Source: Elusimicrobiota bacterium (lineage in GTDB: Bacteria; Elusimicrobiota; Elusimicrobia; UBA1565). Taken from it: a stretch of DNA of 64,000 nucleotides. How positions within the stretch are numbered: position 1 is the stretch's first letter; every line of letters starts with the position of its first letter. Below are positions 23,100 to 25,310 of the stretch, piece by piece. Location of the stretch: NCBI GenBank assembly GCA_016196755.1, contig JACPXC010000027.1, forward strand, positions 1 to 64,000, in the 5' to 3' direction. Under the pieces are notes generated by a model that was not told the DNA's origin, ran no database searches, and saw only the letters and a program-made list of their open reading frames with translations. The position numbers were made by a program, and so were the translations under genes.

Positions 23100-24693
23100 G
23101 GACCGCCCCATCCCTCCCCAACCCGGCGCGTCCCGGCCTCCCGCGCCGCCGCCGGCCGCTCTCGTCAAGCGCGAGGAGAGCCCGCTCATGGAGTACATGC
23201 GCGCGCGCATGGAGATCATCGAGCGCGAGCTCATCAAGGAGCGCGAGCGCGCCGCCGCCTCCGAGAACATCATGAAGCAGCAGGAGGCCCTGCGCTCGGA
23301 CGTGGAGGCCCATCTCAACCGCATCGGCGCCCAGCTCATCCAGGAGAAGTCGGTCCAGGAGCTCTCGGAGGACCGCTCCGAGCAGAAGGGCCGGGTCGAG
23401 TCGCTCGAGAAGCGCCTCGACGACATGCACGGGACCTGGGCCCAGCTGCTCAAGGACGCCTTCCAGCGCTCCGAGGACGGCCGCGCCCAGCTCACCCCCG
23501 AGATCCGCGCCTTCACCGAGGCGATGGGGGCCTTGCGCGAGGACGTCCGTTCGCTGGGCGCGGGCTTCAAGCGCCTCGAGGATGAGGCCGCCTCCCAGCG
23601 CGCCCTGGCCCGCGAGGTGGAGGGACTGCGCCAGGAGGTCCCGTTGGCCGCGCGCCGGCGCGAGGAGGAGGAGAAGGCCCTGCGCGACGAGCTGCGCGCC
23701 CACGCCGAGCGCCTGGGAGAGGCCCTTTTCGAACGCCTGACCGGGATGGACCGGCGCATAGCCGAGGAACTGCGTCATCAGGAAGATCGGCTCGAGGTGA
23801 TGATCCGCGAGCGCGCCTCCCTCCAAGAGGCCCTCGACGAGGAGCGCGTCCGGGCCCGGCATGACGTCATCAAGGAGCGCGCCTCCCTGCAGGCGCTCTT
23901 CAACGAACAGATCTCCGGCCTCGAGCGCGAACTGGTCCGGGTGACGGACCGCCAAGGCCAGACGACCACGGCCCTGGAGAGCCTCCACGGCCTGGCCGAG
24001 AAGGTCCACGCCATCCTGAGCCAGCCCCAGAAGGCCAAGGACCTGATGCTCCAGGAGCTGGAGGCCGAGAAGAAAGACCTCATGAGCGCCCTCAAGACCC
24101 GCACCGAGCAGCTGCGCACCTACGCCCTCGAGCGCCGCGAGGTCGAGCGGTCGATGGGCGAGAGCCTGATGCAGGCGCACCGGGAGCTCGAGGGCACGGC
24201 CGCGCGCCTCGAGGCCGAACGCCACCGAGCCGCGTCGATCGAGGGCGAGCGCATAGCGCTGGGCGGCCAGCTCGAGCTCACGCGCGCCGAGGTCGAGGAC
24301 CGCGAAGCCCGCTTGTCCCTGCTGGCCTCGGAACGCGACGCCCTGCTCGCGGCGCTGGCCGAGGAAGCCGCCAAGGTGCGCCGCCAGATCGACGAGCGCG
24401 CCGAGGGGGACCGGGCCTGGGAAGGCCGGGTCCTCGAGCTCCAGCGCCAGCTAAACGAACAGCGCGCGTCCCGCCTCGGCGCCGAGGCCCACGCCGCCGA
24501 GCTCGAGGACCGCCTCAAGACCCTTTCCGAGCACGTGGCGCGCTCCCTGCGCGAGAAGGAGCTCGTCGAGCGCCGTCATGCCGAGTGGGACAAGGACCGT
24601 CAGTCCATCGAGTCCCAGCTGCGCAAGAAAGACGAGATGGTGGCGATGCTCTCGTCGACCTTCCAGAACCTCCTCAAAAAGCCGCAGTCGTAG
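23089..24693 (+). CDS. long cytoplasmic coiled-coil protein
   Basis: A 534-residue protein with a Pro-rich start (residues 8-25) and coiled coil from about 35 to 525. It has no signal peptide or membrane segment. GTG 23089 overlaps the PorV-like stop by 11 nt, so it is the third gene of the operon. Its composition is like the coiled coil of the 12977-15940 protein but without the membrane anchor or propeller. No specific family is recognised; a filament-forming or scaffold role is possible. Start alternatives are few because the next Met (residue 34) would remove the Pro-rich head. Confidence 0.7.
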   Translation: MSAEDRPIPPQPGASRPPAPPPAALVKREESPLMEYMRARMEIIERELIKERERAAASENIMKQQEALRSDVEAHLNRIGAQLIQEKSVQELSEDRSEQKGRVESLEKRLDDMHGTWAQLLKDAFQRSEDGRAQLTPEIRAFTEAMGALREDVRSLGAGFKRLEDEAASQRALAREVEGLRQEVPLAARRREEEEKALRDELRAHAERLGEALFERLTGMDRRIAEELRHQEDRLEVMIRERASLQEALDEERVRARHDVIKERASLQALFNEQISGLERELVRVTDRQGQTTTALESLHGLAEKVHAILSQPQKAKDLMLQELEAEKKDLMSALKTRTEQLRTYALERREVERSMGESLMQAHRELEGTAARLEAERHRAASIEGERIALGGQLELTRAEVEDREARLSLLASERDALLAALAEEAAKVRRQIDERAEGDRAWEGRVLELQRQLNEQRASRLGAEAHAAELEDRLKTLSEHVARSLREKELVERRHAEWDKDRQSIESQLRKKDEMVAMLSSTFQNLLKKPQS

Positions 24694-24719
24694 GCCCTCT
24701 CCCAAAAAAGAAACGGCGG

Positions 24720-24898
24720 AATTTACGCGCTTCGGGCGCGTGGATCGAAGAATCGCCAACGGCTGCGATTCTTCGATCTCGAACAGAAAACGGCAGAAAA
24801 GAGGGAGCAAGGCTGTGTGCACGCTTCGCGCACGGCGTCGTTATGCACAAGACTGTCCACGTGGACACTCCTGTGCATAAGCCCGAAGCGCGTAAATT
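24720..24898. repeat. 179-bp nested palindromic element
   Basis: An 18-bp perfect terminal inverted repeat (24720-24737 with 24881-24898, AATTTACGCGCTTCGGGC) encloses three further hairpins. These are a 14-bp perfect stem at 24743-24756/24765-24778; a small imperfect stem GTGCACGCTTCGCGCAC near 24817-24833; and a 9-bp stem TTATGCACA/TGTGCATAA (24841-24849/24872-24880) with the 12-nt palindrome GTCCACGTGGAC inside it. A purine-rich single-stranded stretch separates hairpins one and two. No protein frame is convincing. It fills most of the gap between the coiled-coil and cupredoxin genes. It could be a MITE-like element, a structured RNA or an extended terminator. Confidence 0.75.
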
Positions 24899-24911
24899 GC
24901 TCCGTCCTAGC

Positions 24912-24917
24912 TATAAT
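24912..24917 (+). promoter_or_regulatory. -10 box of the cupredoxin gene
   Basis: Perfect TATAAT, 27 nt before ATG 24945. The expected -35 region falls in the right arm of the palindromic element. A strong Shine-Dalgarno (AGGAGG, about 24933-24938) is present, so this mRNA is leadered. Confidence 0.6.
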
Positions 24918-24944
24918 GCCACTAAGCCGCCCCAGGAGGCCCTC

Positions 24945-25310
24945 ATGCGCCGTCTGCTCGTTTTGTCCGCCGTCCTCGCCGCCGTCTTCGCCGCCCGCTC
25001 GGTCCGCTCCGAGGGCGACGCCGTTCGCCAATTCTCGGTGGCCAACATCGAGTACAAGGGCTCCAAGCTGTGGATCCCCGGGACCCTGATCGTGAAGGCG
25101 GGGGAGACCGTCAAGATCAAGCTGGTCAACAGCACCCCTTCGGGCAAGCACGGCTACGCCATCGACGCCTTCGGGGTCAAGACCGAGGTGGCCAACGACG
25201 GCCAGCCGGCGAGCGTCGAATTCAAGGCCGCCAAGGCCGGGCTCTACCCGATCTACTGCCAGCTCCACCCCGCCCACATCGGAGGGCAGCTCCTCGTGCT
25301 GGAAAAATAG
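24945..25310 (+). CDS. exported cupredoxin-domain protein
   Basis: A 121-residue protein with a signal peptide (residues 1-22) and one cupredoxin domain. Candidate copper ligands are the His in SGKHGYAID and the C-terminal cluster YCQLHPAHIGGQLLVLE, i.e. Cys, then His three and six residues on. The usual axial Met is not obvious, so the site may be of a mononuclear red-copper or otherwise modified type. It would act in the periplasm in electron transfer or copper handling. It appears to be a single-gene unit. Confidence 0.78.
   Translation: MRRLLVLSAVLAAVFAARSVRSEGDAVRQFSVANIEYKGSKLWIPGTLIVKAGETVKIKLVNSTPSGKHGYAIDAFGVKTEVANDGQPASVEFKAAKAGLYPIYCQLHPAHIGGQLLVLEK

Follow-up and report, generated by a model that had tools for sequence, protein, structure and literature searches.

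The nested palindrome at 24720-24898 of the window, i.e., the whole 64,000-nucleotide stretch of Elusimicrobiota DNA that we analysed, is almost certainly a copy of a mobile repeat. Our full reading, which we consider probable, is that it is a decayed copy of an interspersed palindromic repeat that is mobile but non-autonomous, with both RAYT-like spread and movement as cargo included. The RAYT-like mobilisation taken by itself is put forward tentatively, with confidence somewhat short of even. With this element the Elusimicrobiota appear to gain a palindromic mobile-repeat family, where a literature search found none.

Anatomy and fold of the window copy

The palindrome is real and lies far beyond chance. 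Its RNA fold reaches -104.4 kcal/mol (z = -9.0 on the + strand and -7.3 on the - strand), a stability that none of the shuffled sequences attained when both strands were compared. The perfect 18-bp terminal repeats of the original prediction are present (24720-24737 and 24881-24898), and they grow to an outer inverted repeat of 25 bp at 92% (24713-24737 and 24881-24905). The 168 homologous ends place the element boundaries at 24713 (ACGG) and 24905 (CCGT), such that the whole copy, comprising left arm, core and right-arm remnant, spans 24713-24905 on the + strand. It lies after a stop codon at 24693 and before the ATG of a cupredoxin gene at 24945, between genes arranged in tandem.

Read along the + strand, the copy begins with the left terminus ACGGCGGAA-TTTACGCGCTTCGGGCGCGTG (24713-24742), which contains a local hairpin, ACGCGC/GCGCGT, and is placed by the terminal consensus. 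This is followed by stem A (24743-24778; loop CAACGGCT), supported by the fold and by covariation over 162 arms, and here the predicted perfect 14-bp hairpin was recovered (24743-24756 paired with 24765-24778). Next come a purine-rich unpaired stretch (24781-24810), in which the ACGG motif is repeated at 24790-24793 (direct repeat D1), and hairpin B, GTGTGCACGCTTCGCGCACGG (24816-24838), which corresponds to the small hairpin described earlier and is found in own-genome copies but not in the relatives' arm matches. The core (24841-24880) is bounded by an inverted TTATGCACA pair at 24841-24849 and 24872-24880 (inverted repeat I2), i.e., the 9-bp stem TTATGCACA/TGTGCATAA expected there. The palindrome said to lie inside that stem also exists, although it measures 14 nt (TGTCCACGTGGACA) and not 12, and it falls within a near-palindrome, ACTGTCCACGTGGACACT, at 24852-24869. 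The remaining segment, 24881-24905 on the - strand, was identified by comparison with whole copies as the outer 25 bp of a right arm that is missing stem A and hairpin B. The window feature retains the left arm and core but no more than the final 25 bp of the right arm, and so is a right-arm-deleted copy of a dispersed, gene-less, hairpin-armed element.

Copies, covariation and insertion

The description of the palindrome as sitting alone is correct for the window but not for the genome. The proposed search for further copies returned dozens in the own genome (G000; 4.59 Mb, 67 contigs), mostly as inverted arm pairs, and 71 stretches matching a 22-base terminus pattern in a public genome set, numbers which are lower bounds because the repeats interrupt contigs in these fragmented genomes; an autonomous copy, of which none was found in these assemblies, could be missed for the same reason. 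All 71 stretches lie in three metagenome-assembled genomes, FW305_bin.15 (G001), NC_groundwater_1680 (G002) and Elusimicrobia bacterium CG_4_9_14_3_um_filter_62_55 (G003), of which FW305_bin.15 is the bearer with the most copies. A DNA similarity search of 57 genomes confined the matches to the own genome and these three, with no match in the 53 other relatives. No matches were found in the viral contigs, plasmids and phages searched, and carriage by any of these was therefore rejected.

A whole copy is approximately 270-330 bp long and consists of two inverted arms around a variable core, each arm running from the terminus through a stem A of 13-14 bp and an ACGG-repeating stretch and, in the own genome, on to a hairpin, GTGCACGCTTCGCGCAC. 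The terminus reads ACGG, five variable bases and TTTACGCGCYTCGGGCGCGTG over 43 own and 125 relatives' ends (also given as ACGG-N5-TTTACGCGC), and the sequence outside it is near random past position -10. Of 155 arms, 112 have ACGG no more than 30 nt from stem A, compared with 18 of 155 control stretches outside. In some of the cores of FW305, TTATNCACA nonamers recur (e.g., L083, L085, L139, L142). Enclosed copies whose ends are CTCCAAGTTCCCGGGG or CTCCATGTTCCCGGGG (L032-L037 and L051-L054) are almost identical to one another and lie at the ends of contigs C5, C8, C9, C26, C28, C35, C36, C40, C49 and C60, and the way in which they break the assembly suggests recent amplification.

The hairpins are conserved in pairing, not in sequence. 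Stem A takes 35 different sequences among 162 arms, yet in 138 of these it is perfectly paired over 13 positions, and when right stems are swapped in from other arms the pairing drops to 8.0 of 13. The two arms of an element often differ in their stems, therefore each hairpin is kept on its own. If an RNA structure on one strand were under selection, G-U should be tolerated more readily than A-C. The 33 mispaired stem cells include 7 G-T and 11 A-C, and the fact that G-T is no commoner than A-C suggests that the stems are maintained at the DNA level, or by a process blind to strand; perfect stems could also arise if quasi-palindromes are corrected in the course of replication. The covariation that the original prediction looked for is thus strong, but it runs across dispersed copies and not through a single-locus RNA. 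Covariation this clean, with very few mispairs among 35 stem sequences, makes hairpin-based recognition testable.

Comparison with empty sites was also proposed at the outset. In G002, a congener, approximately 38 nt separate the coiled-coil gene from the cupredoxin gene; this gap is element-free, and a TATAAT is common to both sites. A second empty site was obtained by comparing the FW305 copy L083 with G000 and G002; at both sites a further few tens of bases next to the element fail to align, and the insertion point is thus not base-exact. Together, the dozens of copies, the empty orthologous site and the sharp common ends support the non-autonomous mobile element among the options first offered. 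The target duplications anticipated for such an element are a different matter: at 61 intact stand-alone copies there was none above shuffled flanks, whereas transposon-like units that carry the element have perfect 8-bp duplications. Stand-alone copies tend toward gene 3' ends, with 18 between convergent and 2 between divergent genes against 27 and 37 control gaps (p = 2e-4), an enrichment that is indicative only, being based on simple longest-ORF gene calls.

At the window locus the downstream gene encodes a cupredoxin (PF13473), and the insertion appears to have lengthened the gap before it. The shared TATAAT (24912-24917, + strand) lies outside the element and is a candidate -10 of this gene; if it is the -10, the right terminus would overlap the -35 region. 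The element may have altered cupredoxin expression.

Nesting and enclosing units

Nesting is the unusual part of this element. The near-palindrome at 24852-24869 belongs to a separate family of 18-bp palindromes, ACTRTCCVCGBGGAYAGT, which at up to two mismatches occurs at 42 places in the genome, while a reversed control pattern occurs at none. Bases 4 and 15 of this palindrome covary in its 22 exact places (12 GC, 9 AT and 1 mixed). Many members are solitary and sharp-edged, and examples of solitary members in the own genome are C4:10722, C8:38994, C14:135511 and C28:185304.

At the next level, several own-genome copies of the element lie within units whose ends differ from its own. Where these ends are of the GGCTCATGGCAC type, perfect 8-bp target duplications surround the unit at L039 (TGGTTTTT), L046 (TTCTTTAG), L058 (ATAAATTG) and L061 (TTACTTCT), which indicates that the element has also been moved as cargo. 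Palindromic repeats are seen to nest stepwise within one lineage. A search for an autonomous copy using the GGCTCATGGCAC ends gave just a remnant, at C21:45840, in assemblies that break within these repeats.

Other sequences are associated with the element at individual loci. A degenerate IS110-family gene lies inside an arm, between GGAGC and AATG, at L031 (C14:159859-161085). No other IS110 match in the assembly exceeds the Pfam cut-off, and an IS110 origin was rejected since this lone gene is a later insertion within the arm. A second likely IS110-type gene start (MKLYAAIDLHSNN) adjoins TTCTGATTAGGGACAGT-type ends at L049 (end of C67) and L060 (start of C11), where such ends enclose element copies and the contigs break. 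Outer repeats that start with GGTGCCA and go on with a tandem 8-mer (e.g., GGAAGTTCGGAAGTT) enclose some copies, at L050 and L059 as well as L110, L113, L120 and L137 of FW305. Similar motifs, GCCTGGCAC, flank a widespread RAYT gene (L226, L238, L243).

Mobilisation and alternative readings

We propose that an enzyme whose gene lies elsewhere would recognise the hairpin ends when the DNA is single-stranded or cruciform, as has been proposed for REPINs, and that this enzyme would most plausibly be a Y1/HUH (RAYT-like) transposase. In addition, some own-genome copies would travel as cargo of the GGCTCATGGCAC-ended transposon-like units with their 8-bp target duplications. The own genome has approximately 12 Y1 (RAYT-type, Y1_Tnp) genes, an unusually large number compared with 0-6 in each of 19 relatives; none of these own genes has a recognised partner repeat. 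The flanks of 20 Y1 loci from own and related genomes held no arm match at E <= 10 amounting to a copy, although gaps in the assemblies could hide one, and the Y1 loci examined have no TIR in common. A RAYT clade that tracks the presence of the element was rejected, as the clade common to the four bearers also occurs in non-bearers and is widespread in the order.

REPINs consist of two REPs in inverted orientation, show compensatory changes and are proposed to move as single strands in a RAYT-dependent manner; REPs are found preferentially at gene 3' ends (PMC3116915, PMC3733652, PMC8266576). REPINs are the closest known kind, and by analogy the element would work like one. As in REPINs and BIMEs, two inverted hairpin units surround a spacer and many extragenic copies are found in own and related genomes, with compensatory stem changes, gene-end placement, a clover-like fold and Y1 genes in the same genome. 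However, a whole copy of the element is much longer than a REPIN, at ~270-330 bp against roughly 100 bp; its tag is ACGG with five variable bases before TTTACGCGC, where the REPIN tag is most often GTAG; and, in contrast to a REPtron, no copy stands beside a Y1 gene among those examined. Because no arm lies beside the Y1 genes examined, the tag is ACGG and the RAYT clade also occurs in non-bearers, REPIN membership is not claimed. CGTC-tagged repeats are without a dedicated neighbouring transposase, and there are RAYTs with flanking TIRs that bear no relation to REPs (PMC3733652). The element is also without such a transposase, but it differs from the CGTC-tagged REPs and TIRtrons in its tag, its much larger size and the missing common TIR at Y1 loci. 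It provides a test case for identifying the partner of a REP-like repeat with no neighbouring transposase.

The best-surviving alternative, which we nonetheless consider unlikely, is an ordinary MITE of a DDE-type IS, or the product of stem-loop replacement of the kind described for IS1272 (IS1182 family), a transposition aimed at hairpins, terminators among them, that produces no target duplication (PMC5678879). The element resembles a DDE MITE in being short, gene-less and multi-copy with terminal inverted repeats and in the 8-bp duplications of its enclosing units; it differs in that the stand-alone copies have no duplication and each arm has two local hairpins with covarying stems, which is not a usual DDE end. 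IS1182-type replacement would account for the nesting and the missing duplications, and both the palindromic surroundings and the location at gene 3' ends, where terminator hairpins are situated, are consistent with it. However, DUF772 (IS1182-type) has no match in any of the four bearers (G000-G003), and such replacement was therefore rejected as the present driver. DDE_Tnp_1 is absent from G001, and no transposase was found flanked by element ends.

Somewhat less likely again is a distinct gene-less class, whose ends would be recognised by hairpin shape and short ACGG tags and not by the sequence of the stem, which an enzyme would move without target duplication and which would also grow by nesting, in that a second palindrome family lies within the element while several transposon-like units, their ends unrelated, carry the element itself.

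It is improbable that a function in RNA or transcription maintains the structure, whether as a terminator, an mRNA stabiliser or a cupredoxin attenuator, origin aside. The very stable fold would suit such a function, as would the tandem-gene gap occupied here and the frequent position at gene 3' ends elsewhere. Against this, no intrinsic terminator and no sigma-70-type promoter was detected in a scan of 24600-25000, an Rfam search of the window at the gathering score returned three tRNAs only and no match to the element, the element is absent from the orthologous site, and G-T is no more frequent than A-C among the mispairs. A single-locus structured RNA, also among the options first raised, is not supported, since the feature is a dispersed repeat.

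A dispersed protein-binding or replication site with DnaA-box-like TTATNCACA repeats as the working part is very improbable: two such nonamers occur in the window copy (24841-24880) and TTATCCACA reaches 0.35/kb in the relatives' elements against 0.010/kb outside (6 nonamers against 5 in all other DNA of those loci, although these six may have related cores and not be independent), but the nonamer is present in 1 of 31 own-genome elements, and the copies are too numerous and too dispersed for an origin.

One further copy in the own genome, L066 (C21:187-350), is a truncated left arm that lies directly upstream of a putative cobalamin riboswitch, recognised by the look of its sequence.
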